This document shows, piece by piece, positions 4,291-62,128 of a stretch of DNA of 64,000 nucleotides. Within the stretch, counting starts at the first letter, position 1; each line of letters opens with the position of its first letter. This DNA is from Chryseobacterium suipulveris (GTDB taxonomy: Bacteria > Bacteroidota > Bacteroidia > Flavobacteriales > Weeksellaceae), in contig NZ_CP094532.1 in NCBI RefSeq assembly GCF_022811685.1, positions 1,699,501-1,763,500 on the forward strand, in the 5' to 3' direction. The translations under genes were made by a program, and so were the position numbers. A model generated the notes under the pieces. That model ran no database searches. It was not told where the DNA came from and was given only the letters and a program-made list of their open reading frames with translations.

Positions 4291-7200
4291 TTAATTCAAA
4301 AACACCTTATACTTCTGCAGTTCGTGGAAAATTCCCAGCAAATCACCATTGATGTCGATATGCTGCTTCATCGACATGAGTTCGAGTACCGACTGGTCTT
4401 CAGGATTTCGCACGTAGAAATTCAGCTTCTGCTCTCCCTTGTTTTTGGCGAAACTGCTGATGAAGAAATCCAGGTCTTGTTTTCGAAGATCATTAATATC
4501 AACAACCACCGTCATTTTCTTGGCAAACTTCTCGAAGGCGTCTTTCAGATCGATAATATCCGCAACATTTACGAACACTCTTCCGTCATTCGATTGGGAA
4601 AACTTGATCTTGAAAATAACGAACCGCTGCAGGTCAACCTTATCGCGAAGCCGCATATAGTCGCGGTCTCCCAAACGGAAACTATAACTGCCGCTGTAAT
4701 CTTCGAGGGTTACGAATGCGATTTTCTCGCCGCTGTTTTTGCCGTCGCGCACCGTGTATTCGGTCACCATTCCTGCGACCATATATTCGGGAGTATTATT
4801 TTTAAGCGCCTGTTTCTCCTTCCACGAAAGTTTATCGTTGTTGAAAAGGTCGGGCTGATTCGGGAAAGCGGATTCCTTGAAAGCATCCACCTCATCCAGA
4901 TTCAGAAAATTGAAAGCTCCTTTCGGCTCTGCCTTTTTAGTCGGCTCATCGATCATTGCTTCTTCCCCATCCAAATCTTCGACTGCGATATCCACTATCT
5001 CGTCGTCGGAATCAGAAACATCTACCGGGAGGACTATTTTTTCAAGCTCTTCACCGCCGTGCTTCTTCCCTTCCAGGATTTCCTTTTTGCTTAATGCACC
5101 TTCGATAAACTGGTACTGGAATTTATACTCATCCAGCGGATGTGCCGAAAGATAGAACCCGATGATTTCCTTTTCACGGTTGAGTTTGTGCATATTCTGC
5201 CATTCCGGAGCGGGGTTTATTTTGGGCTGCTCGATTTGCACTTCCTCGGCAAAATCGGCAAACAGCGAGTTTTCTATTTCATTCTTGCTGTCCTGAAAGC
5301 TTTGACCATAACGAAGGAGACGCTCGATATTGGTTCTTCCCGCATTGTCGATGTCGAAATATTGTGCGCGGTGGTATTTATCAACCTCGTCGAAAGCACC
5401 TGCAATCACCAAACTTTCGGCAACCCTTTTATTGATTTGAGAATATGGAACTTTCTCGAAGAAGTCGTAGATATTTTTGAATCTTTCCGTTTTTCGTGCC
5501 TCTACAATGGCTTCACTTGGACCTTCGCCAATTCCCTTGATGGCGCCCAATCCGAAGCGGATCTGTCCTTTATCGTTCACCGCAAATTCATACTGCGATT
5601 CGTTGACGTCGGGACCCAAAACATCCACACCAATACTTTTGCAGTCCTCCATAAACATCGTGATCTGCTTGGTATTGTTAATGTTGTTGCTCATCACACT
5701 CGCCATATATTCTGCGGGATAGTTTGCTTTAAGATAGGCAGTTTGGTAGGCGATCAGCGCGTAACAGGTGGAGTGCGATTTGTTGAAGGCGTATTCCGCA
5801 AAAGCTTCCCAGTCTTTCCAGATTTTGTTCAGCTTCTCTTCATCCAGGTTGTTGGATTTTCCACCTTCGATAAACTTCGGGTACATCTTGTCCAGCACGT
5901 CTCTCTGTTTCTTACCCATCGCCTTTCTCAGGTTGTCGGCTTCGCCTTTGGTAAAGTTGGCGAGCTTCTGCGAAAGCAGCATTACCTGCTCCTGATAAAC
6001 GGTAATTCCGTAGGTTTCGCCGAGATATTCTTCGGTTTCCGGTAGGTCAAAGAGCGTTTCTTCAATCTTATGCTTTCTGTTGATAAAGGAAGGGATATAC
6101 TTAATCGGACCTGGTCTGTACAGCGCGTTCATTGCAATTAAATCTGCGAATTCGGTCGGTTTCAGTTCCCGCATATATTTCTGCATTCCAGGACTTTCGT
6201 ACTGGAAGATTCCTACTGTTCTCCCCTCCTGAAAGAGTTGGAAGGTTTTGCTGTCGGTGAGCGGAATCTTGTCCGGGTCGATGTCGATTCCGTGTCTTTG
6301 CTTAATAAGTTTGATGGCGTGCTTGATGATGGTCAAAGTCCTTAAACCCAAGAAGTCCATTTTGAGCAATCCCGCGTTTTCCGCAACAGAGTTGTCAAAC
6401 TGCGAAACCAAAATGTCGGCATCTTTAGCAGCTGTGGTAATCGGTACCAGGTTCGAAATATCTTCTGGCGTAATGATCACTCCGCATGCGTGGATTCCGG
6501 TGTTTCTGATGCAGCCCTCCATTTTCTGTGCAGAGGAAAGCACTTCGTATCTTCCGTCGTCGGGATTGGCGAGGATGTCCTTCATTTCCTGAACAAGCAC
6601 TTTGTCTTCGGGAGCGAGTTTCTCAAACTTCGAAAATGCTTTCGCGATATTCATTCCGGGAATTGAGGGAACCAGTTTCGCGATATTGTTAGTTTCGGGA
6701 ATCGATACATCCAAAACTCTTCCTGCATCTTTAATCGCAGATTTCCCACCAAGAACTGAATACGTAATAATCTGCGCCACATTGTTTTTTCCGTATTTGT
6801 CAACCACCCATTTGATGATTTTGTCGCGGCCTTCATCGTCGAAATCGATATCGATATCGGGCATGGAAACCCTTTCCGGATTCAGGAACCTCTCAAAAAG
6901 GAGGTCGTATTTGATGGGGTCCACATTGGTAATCCCGGTACAGTACGCCACCGCAGAACCTGCAGCAGAACCACGACCCGGACCGACCCAAACCCCCATC
7001 TTTCGCGCCTCGTTGCAAAAATCCTGTACAATCAAAAAGTAACCGGGATATCCGGTATTGGCAATAACCTCCAGTTCGAAGTCGAGCCGTTCCCTGATTT
7101 CAGCGGTGATTTCGGAATATCTTCTTGCAGCGCCTTCGTAGGTCAAATGTCTCAGGTAAGCATTTTCACCGCGTTTGCCGTTGTCGGCTTCATCCTGCTC

Positions 7201-8949
7201 ATCTTTAAACTCTTCTGGAATCGCAAACTCCGGAAGCAGCACGTCACGCTTCAGCGTGTAGCGTTCAAACTTCGCCAGGAACTCGGTATATGCCTCAAAA
7301 GCGTCGGGATAATTTCTAAAGGTCTGCTTAAGCTCTTGTTCGTCTTTAATATAAAATTCGTTGGTCGGAAGTGCTCTGCGTTTTCCGAAACCTTTTCCGA
7401 CCGGGGTTGAAAGTTTCTCCCCATCCTTGATGCAATACAGGATGTCCTGAATATTGGCATCGGCTTTTTCTGTATAGAAGGTTTCGTTTTGTGCCAGAAT
7501 CTTCACTCCGTATTTGTCGGCAAACTCGAGCAGCACGTCGTTGAGGTGTTCCTCCTCTTCCACCTCGTGGTTTTGGATCTGTACGTAGAAGTCTTCGCCA
7601 AAGGTTTCTTTCCACCATTTGAACACTTCCTCCCCTTTCTGCTCACCGAATTCGAGAATCGTATTGGGTACGTCGCCCGCAGTTCCGGCCGTCAATGCGA
7701 TCAAGCCCTCCTTATATTCGGCAATCATTTTTTTAGAGATCCTGGGAACGCCGAAATAGAATCCGTTCACGAATCCAAAACTCGACAGTTTCGCCAGGTT
7801 TCTGTAGCCGTCGAAATTCTTTGCCAGTAAAACCACATTGGTTCTGCGGTCGGGATCGTCTTTGGTAAACTGCTTCTGTTCGGGGCGGTCCGAAAGATAG
7901 AACTCGCAGCCGATTACTGGGATGAAGTCGTGTTTCTTGCCGAGGAATTTTTCTTTATTTTTAAGAAAATCCTTTTCCTTGTCGGGAGTTCTTTCTACAT
8001 CTTTTTCCTGCTCATAGGTTTCGTTGAACTTCTTGCAGTCTTTGTTCCATGATTCAATTTCGGAAACAAACTTAAATGCGCCCATCATATTTCCCAGATC
8101 CACCAAACCGACGGCGGGAAAATTGTTGCGCTCCGCCTTTTCGAGCAGTTCGTGGAGGTGCGACGATGCCTGCAAAGACGAGTAAATACTGTGGTTGTGG
8201 AAATTGAAATAGTCGCCGATTTCCACCTCGTCGGTATCGCCGAAATCGACGGTCTTTTTCTCCTTCGATTCGGCAACCTGTCTTCTGATGACGATTCCGA
8301 ACGGTTTAATCGGATTCGGATGTGCTTTGATAAATTCCTGAAGCTCGCTTTCGGTGATCTTTAAGCTCGATGCAGGAATAATCCCGATTCGCATCATCTC
8401 GAAGAAAATCTGTGCGGTGGCGTTCACATCGGCGGCGGCGTTGTGTGCCTCGTCAAATTTCTCGCCATAGAGTTTTTGGTACAGTTCCTCCAGTTTTGGG
8501 GATTTGTACTTCCCTCCTTTTCCGCCGGGAAGTTGGCAGAACTCTGTCCCGAGTTCCATGGTATCGGCGGTAGGAATTGCTTCTAAAGTGTTTTCGATCT
8601 CTTTTCTAAAAAACTCTGCACCCACGATTTTGTAGTCGAAGTCGATATTGTGACCGACCACGACCTGCACTTTTTTCAGCACCTCTCTGAATTCTTCGAG
8701 CACTTCAGCCAAGTCTCGCCCTTCCTCCATCGCTATTTTGGTAGAAATTCCGTGGATTCTCGCAGCATTGAAAGGAATATCGTAACCTTCCGGTTTAATG
8801 ATATAGTCCTGGTTTTCGAGCAGGTTTCCGTCCTTATCATGGAGTTGCCAAGCGATCTGCACCATTCTTGGCCAGTTTTCGGAATCGCTCAGCGGCGCGT
8901 TAAAGTTTTTTGGTAAACCCGTGGTTTCCGTGTCGAAGATTAAAAACAT
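4291..8949 (-). CDS. dnaE: DNA polymerase III alpha subunit fused to DnaQ-type exonuclease
   Basis: This replicative polymerase has 1552 residues, some 300-400 more than a usual DnaE. Residues 1-190 are a DEDDh proofreading exonuclease (FDTETTG at 5-11, GHNIDFD near 100, HNAAADVNA near 170). A PHP domain follows (FHNHSIYSS near 250), then the polymerase core with GPGRGSAAGS near 655 and the catalytic aspartates in PDIDIDF near 697, a helix-hairpin-helix region, and an OB fold near 1385-1475. The PHP metal site looks degraded: DHGN is DLGN and the later NDxHY is NETFY. Proofreading is therefore probably done by the fused exonuclease. The polymerase needs its clamp and clamp loader, which are encoded elsewhere. 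It appears to be transcribed alone. Confidence 0.95.
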   Translation of the reverse strand: MFLIFDTETTGLPKNFNAPLSDSENWPRMVQIAWQLHDKDGNLLENQDYIIKPEGYDIPFNAARIHGISTKIAMEEGRDLAEVLEEFREVLKKVQVVVGHNIDFDYKIVGAEFFRKEIENTLEAIPTADTMELGTEFCQLPGGKGGKYKSPKLEELYQKLYGEKFDEAHNAAADVNATAQIFFEMMRIGIIPASSLKITESELQEFIKAHPNPIKPFGIVIRRQVAESKEKKTVDFGDTDEVEIGDYFNFHNHSIYSSLQASSHLHELLEKAERNNFPAVGLVDLGNMMGAFKFVSEIESWNKDCKKFNETYEQEKDVERTPDKEKDFLKNKEKFLGKKHDFIPVIGCEFYLSDRPEQKQFTKDDPDRRTNVVLLAKNFDGYRNLAKLSSFGFVNGFYFGVPRISKKMIAEYKEGLIALTAGTAGDVPNTILEFGEQKGEEVFKWWKETFGEDFYVQIQNHEVEEEEHLNDVLLEFADKYGVKILAQNETFYTEKADANIQDILYCIKDGEKLSTPVGKGFGKRRALPTNEFYIKDEQELKQTFRNYPDAFEAYTEFLAKFERYTLKRDVLLPEFAIPEEFKDEQDEADNGKRGENAYLRHLTYEGAARRYSEITAEIRERLDFELEVIANTGYPGYFLIVQDFCNEARKMGVWVGPGRGSAAGSAVAYCTGITNVDPIKYDLLFERFLNPERVSMPDIDIDFDDEGRDKIIKWVVDKYGKNNVAQIITYSVLGGKSAIKDAGRVLDVSIPETNNIAKLVPSIPGMNIAKAFSKFEKLAPEDKVLVQEMKDILANPDDGRYEVLSSAQKMEGCIRNTGIHACGVIITPEDISNLVPITTAAKDADILVSQFDNSVAENAGLLKMDFLGLRTLTIIKHAIKLIKQRHGIDIDPDKIPLTDSKTFQLFQEGRTVGIFQYESPGMQKYMRELKPTEFADLIAMNALYRPGPIKYIPSFINRKHKIEETLFDLPETEEYLGETYGITVYQEQVMLLSQKLANFTKGEADNLRKAMGKKQRDVLDKMYPKFIEGGKSNNLDEEKLNKIWKDWEAFAEYAFNKSHSTCYALIAYQTAYLKANYPAEYMASVMSNNINNTKQITMFMEDCKSIGVDVLGPDVNESQYEFAVNDKGQIRFGLGAIKGIGEGPSEAIVEARKTERFKNIYDFFEKVPYSQINKRVAESLVIAGAFDEVDKYHRAQYFDIDNAGRTNIERLLRYGQSFQDSKNEIENSLFADFAEEVQIEQPKINPAPEWQNMHKLNREKEIIGFYLSAHPLDEYKFQYQFIEGALSKKEILEGKKHGGEELEKIVLPVDVSDSDDEIVDIAVEDLDGEEAMIDEPTKKAEPKGAFNFLNLDEVDAFKESAFPNQPDLFNNDKLSWKEKQALKNNTPEYMVAGMVTEYTVRDGKNSGEKIAFVTLEDYSGSYSFRLGDRDYMRLRDKVDLQRFVIFKIKFSQSNDGRVFVNVADIIDLKDAFEKFAKKMTVVVDINDLRKQDLDFFISSFAKNKGEQKLNFYVRNPEDQSVLELMSMKQHIDINGDLLGIFHELQKYKVFLN

Positions 8950-54068: not shown

Positions 54069-55421
54069 ATGAAGCTCGCCGATTTAGCAAAGGAACTCAA
54101 CATCTCTACCGAAAGTTTCATCAAGTTTATTACCGATTTCGACCTTGAACTTTCGGAGTGCATCAACACTAACTTTGATGTAAAAGACGACTTTGTAAAG
54201 TTTGCGAGGGAAAATGTCGCATTCCTTAGAAAATACGAGAAAGATCTGGAGGTTGATAAATCTGTAGAAGATATCGCTGAAAACATTAATCAGCCCACCG
54301 AAAAAGTAGCCGAAATCATCAAACAGGAAAAGCCGCGACTCTTCGACAACGGCATCTATAAATCATCTGTTTCCAGTTTCGGGATCGACAATAAACTCGG
54401 CGGAAACTATCAGTTTGTATATGACTATTTCGGCCGAAAAACCAGTCTGAAAGAAAGAGACTTCATCGGTTACAGAGATTTGTTTTTCTATATTTCGCAG
54501 GAACTCGAGCCGTTTATCAACAACGTTCCGTTAAGCGATTGGGGACTTCATAAACCGGCGGGAATTATTCTCTACGGTCCACCGGGAAGCGGAAAGATTT
54601 TTTGGGCAAATAAAATTGCAGAAATTACCGGTTACCTGTTTAAAGAAATCAAAAAACATTATCTCGGTACTTCCTTTGTCGATGGGAATAAGACGACGTT
54701 CAACGACTTCTTGGTGATGATGATGAAAGAGGAAAAAGTGCTTCTTTTTATGGAGGATTTCGATACGATTATGGGAATTCGAACCGAAGAAAAATCAATC
54801 GATTCCTGCGACGAGGAAACCAAGGAAATCGTGATGCACTACATCGGTCATTTCGAGGAAGAAGAGCTTCTGATGGTCGGTTCCGCAAACTCTGTCGTTG
54901 ATATTGACCGCGAAGTTCTGGCACCCGGAAGATTCGATGTGCTGATCCCGATTTTCCCACCCAATTTTCAGGAAAGATGCGAGATGATTCTTTTCCATAT
55001 GACCGAGAATTTGGTGGAAAATTCGTTGCTCATGAGAATTCTGGTCAACAATCATGCTGATCACCTCCCATTTTGGAAGAAAGTTGCCGAAAAAATGAAG
55101 ACCTTTTCAAATACGATGATCATCGATTTTACGCAGAGTTTGAAAAAGAGAATCAGAAACCTTTACCTGAACGACCATTCCGAAAACATCGTAATAGACG
55201 ATCATTTGCTGGATTCTGCTTTACGCGATGCATCGGCAAAACTCACCGAAGAATATCTAACACAGGTCGATCAGTTTATCATCGATGTGACCATTCACAA
55301 TTACGACGATTTCCCTCAACGAATTGAGGAATTAAAGCGCGAGCTGCAAATCTACAAAGTCGTGGAAGCACCGCGAAAATCAATTGGATTCACGCATAAC
55401 GAAGAATCAACAAAGAAATAG
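54069..55421 (+). CDS. AAA+ ATPase with altered Walker motifs and IF2N-like N-terminus
   Basis: This 450-residue cytoplasmic protein has residues 1-90 resembling the helical N-terminal module of IF-2 (KLADLAKELNISTESFIKFI), possibly for protein or nucleic acid binding. The AAA+ domain has Walker A GPPGSGKI near 170-177, where the usual Thr/Ser after Lys is Ile; Walker B LLFMEDFD, where Asp-Glu appears as Glu-Asp; sensor 1 as SANS; and APGRFDVLIP retaining the arginine of the FtsH-like group. Length and layout resemble FtsH/proteasomal AAA modules without protease. Whether it hydrolyses ATP is open. No protease or partner gene is adjacent; the XRE gene precedes it. Confidence 0.7.
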   Translation: MKLADLAKELNISTESFIKFITDFDLELSECINTNFDVKDDFVKFARENVAFLRKYEKDLEVDKSVEDIAENINQPTEKVAEIIKQEKPRLFDNGIYKSSVSSFGIDNKLGGNYQFVYDYFGRKTSLKERDFIGYRDLFFYISQELEPFINNVPLSDWGLHKPAGIILYGPPGSGKIFWANKIAEITGYLFKEIKKHYLGTSFVDGNKTTFNDFLVMMMKEEKVLLFMEDFDTIMGIRTEEKSIDSCDEETKEIVMHYIGHFEEEELLMVGSANSVVDIDREVLAPGRFDVLIPIFPPNFQERCEMILFHMTENLVENSLLMRILVNNHADHLPFWKKVAEKMKTFSNTMIIDFTQSLKKRIRNLYLNDHSENIVIDDHLLDSALRDASAKLTEEYLTQVDQFIIDVTIHNYDDFPQRIEELKRELQIYKVVEAPRKSIGFTHNEESTKK

Positions 55422-55645: not shown

Positions 55646-55831
55646 TTTTACTAAGATTTTGATTGTTAAATAATTTGCAGCAATTGATTTGCCAACTTTG
55701 TATCACAAGAAACTCCAAGAATTCACAAAGCTTCCGAAGAATTGTTGCTGAGAAAGGGGCGCTTCGCTTTATGAAGGTTTGCAGAAAATTAGCTTTGCTT
55801 AAAACCATGATGCACATCCTATGAAAATCAT

Positions 55832-55839
55832 TATCTTTG
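55832..55839 (+). promoter_or_regulatory. Promoter -7 element for the DPP IV-like gene
   Basis: TATCTTTG fits TAnnTTTG. It lies within a spurious upstream frame extension and 20 bases before the chosen ATG at 55860, which it supports. Confidence 0.45.
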
Positions 55840-55859
55840 AATCCTTATCATTATTTTTT

Positions 55860-57986
55860 ATGAAAAAAATCTTTTTATCAGCTGCCATCGTTGTTTCAGC
55901 TGCTCTTTTCTCGCAGCAAATTACTTTAGAAAAAATCTATTCTGGTTATTACCGTGGAAAAAATATCGCAGGAATTGCTTCTCTGAAAAACGGTGAAAAC
56001 TACGCCGTAATCGAACCGGGCGGAATTGCAAAATATTCCTATAAAACCGCTCAGAAAGAGGGAAATATTGTTGACGGCAAGTTCAGTTCCTATATTTTTA
56101 ATGAAGACGAATCCAAAATATTATTATTAAAGGAAAGCGAGCCGATTTACCGACACTCATTCTTAGGGAAATTTGATGTGAAAGATTTGAAATCTGGAAA
56201 AGTTCTGTCATTGAATAATGGAAATTATGTGCAGGAACCAACTTTCTCTCCAGATGGAACCAAGGTCGCTTTCATCGCGGATAACAATCTTTTTTACCAG
56301 GATTTGGGTACTGAAAAGATTACCCAAATCACTACCGATGGAAAGAAGAATTCGATCTTGAACGGTCTTGCAGACTGGGTTTATGAGGAAGAATTCGGAC
56401 ACGCGAAATTGTACGAATGGACCAAGAATTCTGACGCGATTGTTTACGTAAAGTCTGATGAATCGGAAGTTCCTGAAATGTATATCCCGATTTACAACAA
56501 GCAGCTATACCCTTCCGAAATGCGTTTCAAATACCCGAAAGCAGGTGAAAAAAACTCTGTCGTTTCAGCGCATCTTTACCGATTGGATTCTGGGAAATCA
56601 ATGGCACTCAATTTATCTTCTTTCAAGAATTACTATATCCCAAATGTCATTCAAACCAAGAAAGCGGATGAAATGATCCTCATTACTTCAGAAAGGATTC
56701 AGAATGCTTCCGATATTTTGAAAATCAATACCAAAAACGGTTCAGTAACCAAACTCTTTACCGAATCGGACGATAAATGGGTCGATACCGAAAATGTAAC
56801 CATGGAATTTCTGGACGATAATTCCTTTATCTGGGGAAGCGAGCGCGACGGAAACCGCCACCTTTACTGGTATGACCAAAACGGGAAACTGAAAAAACAG
56901 ATCACCAAAGGAAATTGGGAAGTTGTTGATTATTACGGGTTTAACCCAAAAACGAATGAAGTTCTGATAAGGACTACAGAAAAAGGCAGCATCAACAAAG
57001 TGGTTTCGAAGGTGAACATCAACACCGGAAAATCTGTTCTGATTTCTAATGGCGAAGGAAATAATTCTGCCGATTTCAGCAAGAATTACAATTATTTTAT
57101 CGAGACCTCTTCATCAGCGAAAAAACCCTACACTTTTGTTTTGAAAGACGGCAACGGCAAAGTAGTGAGAGAACTTCAAAACAATGACGAACAGCTGAAA
57201 AAACTACAGCAGGACAACTTCATTATCAAAGAATACTTCACTGTTCCCAATGAAGCGGGAGATCAGATGAATGCGTGGATCATGAAGCCGAAAAATTTTG
57301 ATCCGAACAAGAAATATCCGCTGTTTATGTACCAATATTCAGGACCCGGTTCTCAGCAGGTAACCAATTCTTGGGATACAGGAAACGGATTGTGGTTCAG
57401 TCATTTGGTGCAACAAGGATATATTGTTGCCTGTGTTGACGGACGAGGAACTGGAGGAAAAGGCACGAAATTTAAGAAAGTGACCTACATGCAACTCGGC
57501 AAATACGAGATTGAAGACCAGATTGCGGCTGCAAAATGGTTCGGCAAACAGTCATACATTGATAAAGACAGAATCGGAATTTTTGGATGGAGTTTTGGCG
57601 GTTATATGGCGAGTTTGGCCTTGACAAAAGGAGCTGATGTTTTTAAGACAGGAATCGCAGTTGCGCCCGTTACAAACTGGAGATACTACGACACCGTTTA
57701 CACCGAAAGATTTATGAGAACGCCACAGGAAAATCCTTCTGGTTATGATGACAATTCACCGACAACGTACGCCAAACTCTTGAAAGGAAAATTTCTGATG
57801 ATCCACGGAACTGCCGATGACAATGTACATTATCAAAATGCACTGGAGTTTGCTGAAGGTTTAATCCAAAACAAGAAACAGTTTGAGTTTATGACCTATC
57901 CCGACAAAAACCACGGAATCTACGGCGGAAACACGCGACCGCAACTTTATCAGATGATGACGGATTTTCTATTGAAAAACCTGTAA
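55860..57986 (+). CDS. Dipeptidyl peptidase IV-family serine peptidase
   Basis: This 708-residue S9B peptidase has a signal peptide (MKKIFLSAAIVVSAALFSQQ). The eight-bladed beta-propeller spans about 25-470 and carries the EE motif (WVYEEEFGH) that binds the substrate N-terminus. The alpha/beta hydrolase domain has the nucleophile Ser in GWSFGGYMA, the Asp in HGTADDNVHYQN and the His in DKNHGIYGG. It should release X-Pro or X-Ala dipeptides from peptides in the periplasm. Start at 55860 is supported by a promoter element upstream. Monocistronic, with a shared terminator. Related enzymes in Elizabethkingia and Porphyromonas have been studied. Confidence 0.93.
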   Translation: MKKIFLSAAIVVSAALFSQQITLEKIYSGYYRGKNIAGIASLKNGENYAVIEPGGIAKYSYKTAQKEGNIVDGKFSSYIFNEDESKILLLKESEPIYRHSFLGKFDVKDLKSGKVLSLNNGNYVQEPTFSPDGTKVAFIADNNLFYQDLGTEKITQITTDGKKNSILNGLADWVYEEEFGHAKLYEWTKNSDAIVYVKSDESEVPEMYIPIYNKQLYPSEMRFKYPKAGEKNSVVSAHLYRLDSGKSMALNLSSFKNYYIPNVIQTKKADEMILITSERIQNASDILKINTKNGSVTKLFTESDDKWVDTENVTMEFLDDNSFIWGSERDGNRHLYWYDQNGKLKKQITKGNWEVVDYYGFNPKTNEVLIRTTEKGSINKVVSKVNINTGKSVLISNGEGNNSADFSKNYNYFIETSSSAKKPYTFVLKDGNGKVVRELQNNDEQLKKLQQDNFIIKEYFTVPNEAGDQMNAWIMKPKNFDPNKKYPLFMYQYSGPGSQQVTNSWDTGNGLWFSHLVQQGYIVACVDGRGTGGKGTKFKKVTYMQLGKYEIEDQIAAAKWFGKQSYIDKDRIGIFGWSFGGYMASLALTKGADVFKTGIAVAPVTNWRYYDTVYTERFMRTPQENPSGYDDNSPTTYAKLLKGKFLMIHGTADDNVHYQNALEFAEGLIQNKKQFEFMTYPDKNHGIYGGNTRPQLYQMMTDFLLKNL

Positions 57987-57988
57987 TA

Positions 57989-58018
57989 AAGTACGAAGTA
58001 CAAATTACGAAGTACGGA
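57989..58018. repeat. Degenerate tandem repeat, TACGAAGTACAAAT unit
   Basis: Four TACGAAG/TACAAAT words lie just after the DPP IV-like gene. Same family as the arrays at 24.1 and 63.8 kb. Confidence 0.6.
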
Positions 58019-58055
58019 AAACCAAAAAATATCGACGGACAGCTAACTTGCAAAC

Positions 58056-58089
58056 AAAAAAATCCCGATTTTAAGATCGGGATTTTTTG
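58056..58089. terminator. Bidirectional terminator, DPP IV-like gene / membrane pyrophosphatase
   Basis: AAAAAATCCCGAT and ATCGGGATTTTTT form a 13-base-pair stem around TTTAAG, between convergent genes. Confidence 0.85.
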
Positions 58090-58109
58090 GTCTTTTATTG
58101 TTGTAAATT

Positions 58110-60851
58110 CTACATTCCGAGAACTCTTACATCAATTCTTCTGTTCTGCGCCTTACACTCGTCGGTGTCGTTTGCAGGGCACACTGGGAACTGTGAACCG
58201 TAACCTTCAGCTTCTACCCTGTCTGCAGCGATTCCGAGATTCATCAGATATAGTTTTGCACTTTGGGCACGAAGATTAGACAGCGTTTTGTTGCTCTCCT
58301 CGTTTCCGGTATTGTCGGTATAGCCACCTAATTTTACCTTAAGATTTGGATAGGCAGTCAAAAGTTTCGCGATATTGTCGAGTTCCTTTTCGGCACCGGC
58401 TTTCAATTTTTCGCTATTCGTTTCGAAATAAAGATTTTCGATGGTGAACCATTTTTCTTTTTCAAGCAGGGTTTGATCTTTCATTTCAATTCCTTTTGCA
58501 AGAAAGCCGATCTGGCTCATTTCGCCAAGAGTCAGCGCTTCACCGTTTGGAAGTTTAATGGCAGTCGGATTTCCGGTGTTGTACACATAATCTCCGCTTT
58601 CATTTAAAGTTCCGGTTGGCTTCACAATATCGTATTCCATTGAATCCTGAGCAGCAGCAGAAGTTGAGTGAGCTGCACCTGTACTTTTCAGCTGCATTGC
58701 TTCCATTTTTGCCTTTCTGTTTTCTTCGATTTTATCTTTATGTAAAATGGCTAAAGTCGGCGCGATTACCAGCGAAACGATGGACATCAACTTGATCAAT
58801 ATATTCATCGACGGACCGGAAGTATCTTTGAAAGGATCACCCACAGTATCTCCTGTTACCGAAGCTTTGTGTGGTTCAGAACCTTTGTAGAAAGTTTTTC
58901 CGTTAATATCAACTCCTTTTTCGAAAGATTTCTTGGCATTATCCCAAGCTCCTCCTGCATTGTTTTGGAACATTCCCATCAATACTCCGGAAACGGTTGC
59001 TCCGGCAAGGAAACCTCCCAAAACTTCAGGCCCGAAAATGAAGCCCACCAAGATTGGTGAAATCAAAGCGATTGCACCCGGTAAAAGCATTTTCTTGATC
59101 GATGCATCGGTAGAGATTGCCACACATTTTTCATACTCTGGAACTGCTTTTCCTTCGAGGATTCCAGGGATCTCGCGGAACTGTCTTCTTACTTCTTCCA
59201 CCATCGCCATCGCCGCTTTTCCTACTGCGGTAATTGCCAGTGACGAGAAGATGAACGGAATCATACCTCCAATGAAGAGACCCGCCAAAACATCTGCTCT
59301 GTAAATATCGATGCCATCGATTCCCGCAATTCCAACGAATGCCGCGAAAAGCGCCAAAGCCGTCAAAGCAGCGGAAGCGATTGCGAAACCTTTTCCTGTT
59401 GCGGCGGTGGTATTTCCTACCGCATCGAGAATATCGGTTTTTTCACGAACCTCTTTCGGTAATTCACTCATTTCAGCGATTCCTCCCGCGTTGTCTGCGA
59501 TCGGTCCGAATGCGTCAATTGCCAACTGCATCGCGGTTGTCGCCATCATTCCGGCAGCAGCGATTGCAACTCCGTACAATCCTGCGCAAAGGTAGGAACC
59601 GTAGATTCCACCCGCTAAAACAATAATTGGCAAAAGTGTAGATTCCATCCCGACAGAAAGTCCGCCGATAATGTTTGTCGCGTGTCCTGTTGATGATTGT
59701 CTCACGATACTTTTCACCGGTCTTTTTCCCATTGCTGTGTAATATTCGGTGATGATACTCATTAAAGTTCCCACGATCAAGCCCACGATAATCGCTCCAA
59801 AAACTCCCATTTTGGTGAATTCGTGACCTCTTAAAGTCATTGTTTCAGGCATTAAATAATTAACCAGGAAATAAGATGCGATCGCGGTGAGAATGATACT
59901 TCCCCAGTTACCGAAGTTCAGCGCATTCTGTACAGGTGCGGTATCGAGTTCGGTGTGTTCACCAATTTTCACGAACAAAGTTCCTATGATGGAGAAAATA
60001 ATTCCGATTCCCGCAATCATCATTGGTAAAAGGATTGGCGCATAACCACCGAAAGTGTCATTAGATAAAGTTTCTCTTCCTAAAACCATGGTCGCCAAAA
60101 CGGTCGCAACATAAGATCCGAATAAGTCGGCTCCCATTCCGGCAACATCTCCTACGTTGTCTCCTACGTTATCTGCGATGGTTGCAGGGTTTCTTGGATC
60201 ATCTTCAGGAATTCCTGCTTCTACTTTTCCAACAAGGTCGGCTCCAACGTCTGCAGCTTTGGTGTAAATTCCACCACCAACTCTCGCGAAAAGTGCGATG
60301 GATTCCGCACCAAGAGAGAATCCGGTTATGATTTCTATTGCTCTTTCCATTTCGTGGGTATCCACAGCTGCGTCCGGAGCAAAGATTTGTTTTACGATAA
60401 GGAATGTCGCACCTAATCCTAAAACAGCCAAACCGGCAACTCCCATTCCCATCACGGAACCTCCTGTGAAGGAAACTTTAAGTGCTTTTGCTAAAGAGGT
60501 TTTTGCCGCTTCCGCAGTTCTGACGTTTGATTTTGTGGCGATCTTCATCCCGATAAATCCTGCGAGAGCCGAAAGGATTGCCCCGAAAATAAAGGCAAAA
60601 CCGATACTCCAGTGCGAATTGGCGTTGGATGCTCCCATAATTCCGAGGAGTACCGCAACAACGATGACAAAATACAGCAGGATCTTGTATTCCGCCTTTA
60701 AGAAAGCCATTGCTCCATCGGCAATGTGCCCGCTGATTTCCTTCATCCTGTCGTTTCCGGCATCCTGTTTCCCTACCCACGAACTTTGAACGAAAGTGTA
60801 AATCAACGCAATGATACCAAAAATCGGCACCAAATAAAATAAGAAATTCAT
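58110..60851 (-). CDS. hppA: Membrane pyrophosphatase fused to an OmpA-type domain
   Basis: This 913-residue ion pump has about 16 helices in residues 1-705. The pyrophosphate site appears as [20 protein letters not shown] and [20 protein letters not shown], and the third conserved segment as [19 protein letters not shown] has Ala where K+-independent enzymes have Lys, so it should be K+-dependent, likely pumping Na+ (or H+). Unusually, a linker (about 705-795) is followed by an OmpA-like domain: [30 protein letters not shown] and [13 protein letters not shown] near 860, with the peptidoglycan-contacting Asp and Arg conserved, ending [12 protein letters not shown]. Both termini of this pump family face outward, so the domain would be periplasmic and may tie the pump to the wall. 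Confidence 0.93.
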
Positions 60852-60944
60852 AGATTATTATTTAATGTTAAATTTTGTTAATGAAAAGAATGTCCGAAAA
60901 TACACATTTATTTTAAATTCTCAATGGATTTCGGGGAAAAAATA

Positions 60945-60968
60945 AAGGCAGATGAATCCACCTGCCTT
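60945..60968 (-). terminator. Terminator of the radC-ppa cluster
   Basis: On the minus strand AAGGCAG and CTGCCTT pair, with TTTATTTTTT after the stem. It lies between ppa and the pyrophosphatase pump gene, so the pump is transcribed separately. Confidence 0.7.
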
Positions 60969-60988
60969 CAATTTTTCAACTACTTGAT

Positions 60989-61600
60989 CTACCCTCCAAA
61001 TTTGTTTGCGTAATCATTTTGCGACGAAACGATCACCTGTTTTGCGTGCTCTGCTCCATAAATCTCCTGAATTCTACATTTTGCCGGCTCATCCGGTAGG
61101 TTTTTATAGGTAAGGAAATAGTGCATTAACCGCTTTACTTCTGCTATCGGTAGTTCCGAGATGTCTCTGAAATGTCCGAAAGCGTGGTCGCCCTTCATCA
61201 CTGCAACGATTTTGTCGTCGGCTTCTCCCTTGTCGATCATCTTGAATCCGCCGATTGGTATTGCTTCCATCAACATTCCGCCTGAGTGGATATTGTGTGA
61301 ACTGAGAACACAAATATCGAGCGGGTCCAAGTCGCCTGTTGTTACGTCATTCGCACCACTTGCAATGGCAAGATCTCTCACTTCGTCGTGACAATAAGTT
61401 CTTGGGATAAAACCGTACAATGCGGGAATAATATTGGAGAATTGTTGCGGACGGTCCACTTTCAGGTATCCGCTCGCTTTATCAACTTCGTATTTAATCG
61501 TGTCTGAAGGTACGATTTCGATAAAAACGTTTACAACATTGGGAGCATCAGCTCCTGCATTGATTCCGTGCCATGGATGCGCTTTAAAATTCGGTATCAT
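60989..61600 (-). CDS. ppa: Soluble inorganic pyrophosphatase, family I
   Basis: This 203-residue enzyme hydrolyses pyrophosphate to two phosphates. Family I motifs are VFIEIVPSDTIKYEVDKASG for the N-terminal Glu and Lys contacts, YGFIPRTYCHDE, the DxDPxD metal-binding motif as GDLDPLDICVLS, MIDKGEADDKIVAV and the Lys/Tyr pair near RLMHYFLTYKNL. The length, about 30 residues over E. coli, is normal in Bacteroidota. It lies right before the membrane pyrophosphatase gene, so both ways of using pyrophosphate, heat or ion pumping, are encoded side by side. It is last in the minus-strand radC-ppa cluster. Confidence 0.93.
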   Translation of the reverse strand: MIPNFKAHPWHGINAGADAPNVVNVFIEIVPSDTIKYEVDKASGYLKVDRPQQFSNIIPALYGFIPRTYCHDEVRDLAIASGANDVTTGDLDPLDICVLSSHNIHSGGMLMEAIPIGGFKMIDKGEADDKIVAVMKGDHAFGHFRDISELPIAEVKRLMHYFLTYKNLPDEPAKCRIQEIYGAEHAKQVIVSSQNDYANKFGG

Positions 61601-61618
61601 TATATATTTTAATAATTT

Positions 61619-62128
61619 TTAGTTAGCAATTAGGTTCTCTTTCCTCAAATCCTCCAACGTGCTCGAAATGTAATCTTCCCCGTTCATGTAGTTCATCAGA
61701 AAAACTGTTTTGAAATCCTGCAAAGTAGCATTCTCATTCAGATTTTCATAAGTTTTATGAAGCAGATGGATCACGTTGTTCTTAGAGTTTACCACATTCG
61801 ACCAGGTATTTTTTGGCAGGTAAAGCTGTTGCGAGGCGTTATAGTCGAACTCCTCGTTCACCGCTTTTTCGGTTAGGAAAACAAATTCATGCACTGCAAG
61901 ATTTGGGTCGAATTTCGTAACGAGATTCGACGGTTTCAATCTCTCTAAAAGCAGCGTAAGTCTTTCATACGCATGGATGCGCTGCTCCGAACTTCCCTTG
62001 ATGGTCAAGAGTTTCATCTCCTGATTTTTTAATTTAATGTAGGTATAGACAAATTGCCTGAGCAAAATCAGAAAGGGAATCGCGATCAGGAGCGCAAACG
62101 CATAGGGCATGTAAGGAGAGTCAATCAT
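61619..62128 (-). CDS. Single-pass membrane protein of unknown function
   Basis: This encodes 169 residues. One N-terminal helix (YAFALLIAIPFLILLRQFVY) anchors it, followed by a soluble region that begins YIKLKNQEMKLLTIKGSSEQ. The segment QRIHAYERLTLLLERLKPSNL and the later SQQLYLPKNTWSNVVNSKNN (first word QQLY) are conserved in Bacteroidota homologs as I recall, without a functional name. Predicted topology puts the bulk in the cytoplasm. It lies 18 bases upstream of ppa and is probably co-transcribed. No enzymatic motif found. Confidence 0.75.
   Translation of the reverse strand: MIDSPYMPYAFALLIAIPFLILLRQFVYTYIKLKNQEMKLLTIKGSSEQRIHAYERLTLLLERLKPSNLVTKFDPNLAVHEFVFLTEKAVNEEFDYNASQQLYLPKNTWSNVVNSKNNVIHLLHKTYENLNENATLQDFKTVFLMNYMNGEDYISSTLEDLRKENLIAN

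Follow-up and report, generated by a model that had tools for sequence, protein, structure and literature searches.

A putative wall-held proton pump: a membrane pyrophosphatase with a C-terminal OmpA-like module in Chryseobacterium suipulveris, and the exchange of tail domains among pumps of the Bacteroidota

Membrane pyrophosphatases seem to have been studied mostly as bare pumps. A 2024 review describes an OmpA-like C-terminal domain of ~110 residues on the K+-insensitive pumps of Paucibacter sp. KCTC 42545 and its relatives; it states that the role of this tail is still to be elucidated (PMC11210485). Here we analyse a fusion gene of the same general plan, hppA-ompA, which lies in a 64,000-nucleotide stretch of Chryseobacterium suipulveris (contig NZ_CP094532.1, positions 1,699,501 to 1,763,500 of the forward strand; hereafter the window) and joins a membrane pyrophosphatase to an OmpA-like domain of the peptidoglycan-binding type. 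The first-pass annotation of this DNA had offered such a pump as one without a described function. The basic architecture is already in print for Paucibacter, so the fusion is not unique (PMC11210485). This review was the only source on an OmpA tail of a pump returned by our literature search, which covered a minority of subscription papers; in the part of PMC4602150 available, OmpA and the pump are on different clones.

The 913-residue open reading frame (ORF) has zero internal stops, and the annotated arrangement, a pump with a complete OmpA-like domain past its last helix, was confirmed by the frame itself, by Pfam and by the predicted model. The H_PPase match covers profile positions 1-645 of 645 (E 2.5e-271) and, together with the 16-helix fold of the model, places the protein among the membrane-integral pyrophosphatases; the number given to helix 16 is our own reading of the helix list of the model. 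Within the tail, the OmpA match at residues 808-896 covers profile positions 1-91 of 98 (PF00691, E 9e-19), with a score of 68.1 bits against a gathering cut-off of 27.2. Both the pump fold and the OmpA fold are supported by the model, the OmpA part resembling OmpA-family structures well. About 100 residues separate helix 16 from the OmpA domain in the model. They comprise a linker with a disordered stretch (predicted local distance difference test score, pLDDT, under 50 at residues 726-739) and a small beta-rich stretch that is shared with OmpA proteins encoded on their own in related genomes.

The motifs GYTDNTG and LSNLRAQ, already pointed out in the first reading of the sequence, are present in the OmpA domain and place Asp846 and Arg861 15 residues apart; we take these to be the diaminopimelate-binding residues, as in OmpA structures. 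Their equivalents are present in 55 of 56 fused tails, namely 52 from the survey described below (about 19 near-copies among them) and four from named organisms. An intact peptidoglycan-type pocket is supported by residues and predicted fold, as distinct from pocket geometry, and would agree with the retention of the pocket expected at the outset. Constraint was estimated from the ratio of nonsynonymous to synonymous differences (pN/pS), taken as median pN over median pS among 18 loci of the window's genus (36 genomes). It amounts to 0.072 for the pump, 0.435 for the linker (residues 701-737), 0.333 for the stretch before the domain and 0.181 for the OmpA domain, ratios that are rough, as synonymous divergence (dS) is near saturation and finite in 76-141 of 153 pairs. 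The linker is thus the fastest-evolving part measured, and the OmpA domain is, on this rough scale, under stronger constraint than the linker.

Regarding the transported ion, positions were numbered by anchoring on Arg190 (5.50) and Lys487 (12.50) and on an alignment with VrPPase. The window pump carries Glu at 5.43, Gly (Gly245) at 6.53, Ala at both 6.57 and 12.46, and Gly at 12.49. According to the accessible parts of PMC10897367 and PMC6882861, Glu5.43 characterises the H+ pump of Flavobacterium johnsoniae, which depends on K+, and the residues of the window pump agree with the Glu5.43 class of K+-dependent H+-pyrophosphatases in Table 1 of the latter. Glu at 6.53, the hallmark of Na+-pyrophosphatases, is absent, despite the name 'sodium-translocating pyrophosphatase' of the NCBIfam model NF001955, which spans residues 2-723 of the pump. 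Likewise, the Lys12.46 that marks K+-insensitive pumps (PMC5150537, consulted in part) is not found, the window pump having Ala there. From the residues at 5.43, 6.53 and 6.57 the predicted ion is H+, and the protein is best described as a predicted K+-dependent H+ pump of the F. johnsoniae type and not as a Na+ pump. The earlier wording, 'Na+/H+ pump', is accordingly not borne out.

Even-numbered helices of membrane pyrophosphatases end C-terminally on the periplasmic side, as stated in the part of PMC8657866 available, and by homology the C-terminus of the window pump would be periplasmic. The extra hydrophobic stretch by which an added helix could return the C-terminus to the cytoplasm was sought in the window tail and not found (maximum Kyte-Doolittle value, KD, 0.71, versus 2.31 for helix 16 as control), so that this topology was rejected. 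The non-cytoplasmic placement of the domain proposed in the first pass is in consequence supported. One of 199 tails (locus L050; L numbers denote loci and G numbers genomes) reaches KD 1.82, in an Ala/Val-rich linker.

Taken together, these features lead us to favour, as a reasonably probable reading, a K+-dependent H+ pump of the Glu5.43 type that is held to peptidoglycan, through diaminopimelate, by a Pal/OmpA-type module on the periplasmic end of helix 16. The anatomy of this arrangement is well supported. Pyrophosphate would be cleaved at the cytoplasmic face, and H+ would be released into the periplasm near the end of helix 16. The ~100 residues that follow would lead to the OmpA domain, which would grip diaminopimelate and keep the pump at the wall. 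Binding of peptidoglycan in the cell, with the pump fixed under the wall, appears to be the likeliest role of the module.

How general such a tail is was addressed in 228 unique Bacteroidota pumps, whose tails beyond helix 16 were sorted with iterated profiles. The sample is not random, many loci having been picked for long frames or closeness to the window, and the counts are not to be read as frequencies: OmpA 52, YceI 27, FKBP 5, Cys-rich 32, other tails (50 residues or longer) 56, short tails 33 and no tail 23. After near-copies were dropped, 153 tails had 50 residues or more; all but three near-duplicate 'other' tails, 150 in total, were checked against Pfam, with matches to OmpA in 32, YceI in 26, FKBP_N plus FKBP_C in five and BON in one. 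DUF748 matched 22 of the 150, overlapping the OmpA match in the one full table, and Ail_Lom, Gag_p24 and similar matches fell below the cut-off and were disregarded. Pfam confirms 26 of the 27 YceI rows (L154 fails) and, at E 0.001, 32 of the 33 OmpA rows among the 208 pumps used for the tree below, L087 reaching E 0.0017; the Cys-rich representatives gave zero Pfam family matches.

In place of OmpA, YceI tails are found, for instance, at L100, L101 and L254, the last from a named organism and matching solved polyisoprenoid-binding YceI proteins (5w2x, E 8e-22), and FKBP domains of the prolyl isomerase type at L122 and L164. Cys-rich repeat tails (L096, L121, L166, L199, L275, L285) are possibly metal-binding or disulfide-bonded; among the best 80 of 584 relatives, all six loci titled Flavobacterium (L275, L285, L290, L295, L296, L298) have tails of this class. 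In these sequences the end of helix 16 is a fusion hot spot of the Bacteroidota, at which the tails of Glu5.43 pumps would repeatedly have gained OmpA, YceI, FKBP and Cys-rich domains. Neither OmpA-tailed pumps of the Bacteroidota nor a link of such tails with Glu5.43 was found in the literature searched, and the same holds for interchange with YceI, FKBP or Cys-rich tails, of which YceI was searched squarely (two E. coli papers being listed), FKBP barely and Cys-rich not at all.

Other tails and pumps of the survey were recorded along the way. At L136, L139, L142, L145, L149, L157, L160, L162 and L163, from other families of the window's order, tails of 125-138 residues are without a Pfam match at E 0.001 and may represent one or more undescribed domains. 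L130 is a Glu6.53 pump (a Na+-type signature) of 981 residues that bears a BON domain and then an OmpA domain and looks like a separate fusion. L068-L072, from a sister genus of the fused clade, have no OmpA and end in a short tail with Cys, 57-73 residues in length; a Cys-bearing stretch occurs in addition to OmpA at L067 and L236. At L090 the pump gene is in two ORFs of 419 and 402 residues.

In this sample the presence of a tail is strongly linked to the pump type. All 192 Glu5.43 pumps of the sample have at least 15 residues past helix 16, and 161 of them at least 50, versus under 15 residues in 23 of 35 Glu6.53 pumps (19 of 31 with Ala12.46; four of four with Lys12.46). Among 71 pumps of named organisms, tails of at least 15 residues are seen in 50 of 50 Glu5.43 pumps, and tails under 15 in 12 of 21 Glu6.53 pumps. 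This distribution speaks for a rival in which any periplasmic extension at the proton exit mouth would serve, whether by shielding or tuning H+ release, by stabilising the dimer or by helping the protein to fold, the identity of the domain being minor. Domain swaps between near-identical cores (the YceI tail of L101 beside the Cys tails of L199 and L205) and the ion-gate residues supplied by helix 16, according to the part of PMC6882861 at hand, point the same way. We nevertheless judge this explanation rather unlikely, as the pocket residues kept in all but one of the 56 fused tails would be needless in a mere spacer, tail length and sequence are highly variable, and Glu5.43 pumps may form one clade, in which case their association with tails could have arisen just once. 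The link between tail and pump type may, indeed, largely come from shared descent.

A bolder extension of these observations is that, in Glu5.43 pumps of the Bacteroidota, the periplasmic end of helix 16 works as a general socket, located where protons leave, into which different envelope domains can be fitted, so that local H+ release is coupled to a chosen envelope process, with OmpA serving the wall, YceI isoprenoid lipids, FKBP folding and Cys-rich tails metals or redox. We put it forward tentatively, as a doubtful proposal.

The history of the tails was followed on a FastTree phylogeny, which carries a long-branch warning among its outer rows and includes 208 of the 228 cores, near-copies having been excluded along with genes that are truncated or split. 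This tree requires a minimum of 57 changes among the seven tail classes, with 13 changes for the OmpA label, 13 for YceI, 16 for Cys-rich and two for FKBP, gains being indistinguishable from losses. Some changes are recent: L101 (YceI) joins L199 and L205 (Cys) through end branches of 0.015-0.020, and L059 (OmpA) joins L060 and L061, of the same genus, which have short tails. A single origin of the OmpA-fused pumps, with the 18 fused rows of a hand-picked set of 56 forced into one clade, was rejected (p-AU, the approximately unbiased test, 9.8e-5; better model than FastTree, quick tree). A tree of the modules alone forces at least two changes between fused and stand-alone forms, or five by parsimony; its 59 rows include neither L087 nor near-copies, nor six OmpA proteins of the window's genome that are more distant, and its many weak branches make the number of fusion events uncertain. 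Fused modules of a second clade nest among OmpA proteins that stand alone in the same genera and are either lipoprotein-like, with open frames of 216-256 residues, or larger (465-522 residues); the window's genome itself has two looser relatives of 253 and 431 residues. In this mapping of the fusion on the pump phylogeny, the check suggested for it, OmpA-fused pumps have more than one origin.

This turnover bears on a less favoured alternative, neutral hitch-hiking, in which loss of a stop codon fused a spare OmpA module of the lipoprotein type that folds and does nothing for the pump. The 13 OmpA-label changes among the 208 cores, the fast linker, the loss of the module inside genera and the degenerate state of L087 would fit it; the constraint on the module (pN/pS 0.181), pocket residues near-invariant across separate fusions and persistence in 110 of the 197 genomes of the window's family make it improbable. 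Still less credible is a cleavage of the linker that frees the OmpA module as a separate periplasmic peptidoglycan-binding protein. The linker is disordered and fast-evolving and there are close homologues among stand-alone lipoprotein-like proteins, but the freed module would be without an anchor, unlike those homologues.

The uninterrupted fusion in those 110 of 197 family genomes (rows counted by hand), as well as in Chryseobacterium sp. Leaf180 and Taibaiella helva, rules out an assembly join or frameshift between two genes, which we give next to no credence, and the fusion is real. All 36 genomes of the window's genus have one pump each, with an open frame of 910-926 residues. The window's clade accounts for 100 of the 110, 99 of which align full-length at 77-100% identity and one (G439) as two pieces in a single frame; a second clade accounts for ten, eight of them aligning full-length at 60-61% identity and two (G445, G490) in two pieces, again in a single frame. 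Of the remaining family genomes, 12 have a pump without the OmpA module (G440, among them, may end at a contig edge), two have fragments only (G431, G498), and in 73 of those searched a pump match is absent. Among the best 80 of 584 relatives, a list of carriers that is accordingly incomplete, the fusion is also found in Chryseobacterium sp. Leaf180 (L235), Taibaiella helva (L237), Bacteroidetes UBA2364 (L238) and a metagenome-assembled genome titled Phycisphaerales (L236), which may be mis-binned, since its pump groups with Bacteroidota pumps.

Several of our findings weigh against wall anchoring. The module is dispensable, close relatives being without it (L060 and L061, of the genus of the fused L059; L068-L072; L076; L083), and one fused tail, L087, holds a degenerate module in which both Asp and Arg are missing. 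The module is also ~2.5 times less constrained than the pump, by a pN/pS that is rough with dS near saturation. Moreover, other domains occupy the same site, so that anchoring is not the general reason for a tail, and wall binding is unlikely to be its whole explanation because OmpA shares the site with several domains that replace one another there. The repeated exchange suggests instead that wall binding is one use of a general attachment site, which keeps the spacer or tuning alternative alive; the OmpA tail would then be one outcome of a wider acquisition of domains after helix 16 of Glu5.43 pumps in the Bacteroidota. A large group of pumps with swappable periplasmic domains would mean that the envelope location and partners of these pumps matter, and would offer natural experiments in pumps that are almost the same and differ in bearing OmpA, YceI, a Cys-rich tail or nothing.

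Table 1. Features of the fusion gene and its upstream neighbours (window coordinates; aa, amino acids).
Feature	Position	Strand	Remarks
hppA-ompA fusion gene	58110..60851	(-)	913 aa, ATG to TAG
Membrane pyrophosphatase domain, aa 13-696	58764..60815	(-)	Pfam H_PPase
Codon of Glu183, position 5.43	60303..60305	(-)	Ion-gate glutamate, F. johnsoniae-type H+ pump; class from PMC10897367, PMC6882861 (parts available)
Transmembrane helix 16, aa 659-703, periplasmic C-terminal end	58743..58877	(-)	Model helix; orientation per PMC8657866 (part available)
Linker, aa 704-744	58620..58742	(-)	Predicted helix 705-727, then disordered
Small beta-rich stretch, aa 745-801, ahead of OmpA domain	58449..58619	(-)	Model and homologues
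OmpA-like domain (peptidoglycan-binding type), aa 802-912 (start approximate)	58116..58448	(-)	
Codon of Asp846, expected diaminopimelate contact	58314..58316	(-)	Asp in 55/56 fused tails
Codon of Arg861, expected diaminopimelate contact	58269..58271	(-)	Arg in 55/56 fused tails
Terminator-like hairpin between ppa and pump gene	60943..60970	(-)	Consensus match
ppa, soluble inorganic pyrophosphatase	60989..61600	(-)	203 aa; PF00719, E 1e-41
DUF7935 protein	61619..62128	(-)	Upstream of ppa in most close relatives examined

The soluble pyrophosphatase gene ppa had been singled out as lying right beside the pump. The adjacency stands (137 bp upstream, same strand), and a special link between the two does not. 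An upstream ppa is present at 20 of 23 loci examined of the window's clade, five of which are without OmpA (L068-L072). In the second clade it was not found at any of 11 loci (L073-L083), apart from a distant 29% match near L083, nor was it found at L084-L087; L060 offers merely 304 bases of upstream sequence and is uninformative. With ppa beside unfused pumps, not found in this form at the second clade and separated from the pump gene by a hairpin (terminator-like consensus matches number nine in 57950-61700 versus 3.7 in shuffles), its role as a partner of the fusion was rejected, and its proximity looks like inherited gene order unrelated to the fusion. Elsewhere in the window, a palindromic terminator-like hairpin at 58057-58088 lies between the convergent pump gene and a peptidase gene (55821-57986). 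A 450-residue AAA ATPase (54069-55421, plus strand) has an N-terminus that resembles, by eye, the small N-terminal domain of translation factor IF-2, and the DNA polymerase III alpha subunit (4291-8949, minus strand) bears an N-terminal RNase_T exonuclease domain ahead of its PHP domain.

In comparison with known systems, the H+-pyrophosphatase of F. johnsoniae shares with the window pump the position of the ion-gate Glu and, by prediction, the K+ dependence; the parts of PMC10897367 and PMC6882861 available do not mention a C-terminal domain, and the comparison rests on these descriptions rather than on that protein itself. The Paucibacter type has in common with the window protein a membrane pyrophosphatase with a C-terminal OmpA-like domain. 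The pump there is K+-insensitive and of 810 residues, whereas that of the window has Ala12.46 and Glu5.43 (the K+-dependent H+ type) and 913 residues; for the Paucibacter type a figure legend gives 0.052 as the TM-score against E. coli OmpA, while the window fold matches the OmpA family well, the two being compared by description only (PMC11210485, in part). Pal and stand-alone OmpA-family lipoproteins have the same fold and Asp/Arg pocket, and those of related genomes the beta stretch as well; judging by their lipobox-like N-termini, they would be anchored by a lipid, whereas the module of the window is carried by a 16-helix pump. Finally, the stator proteins MotB and MotS match the window protein in its OmpA part alone. 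They are subunits of a motor channel and not of a pump; if the OmpA form is indeed wall-bound, a primary pump would be fixed in the manner of a flagellar stator.
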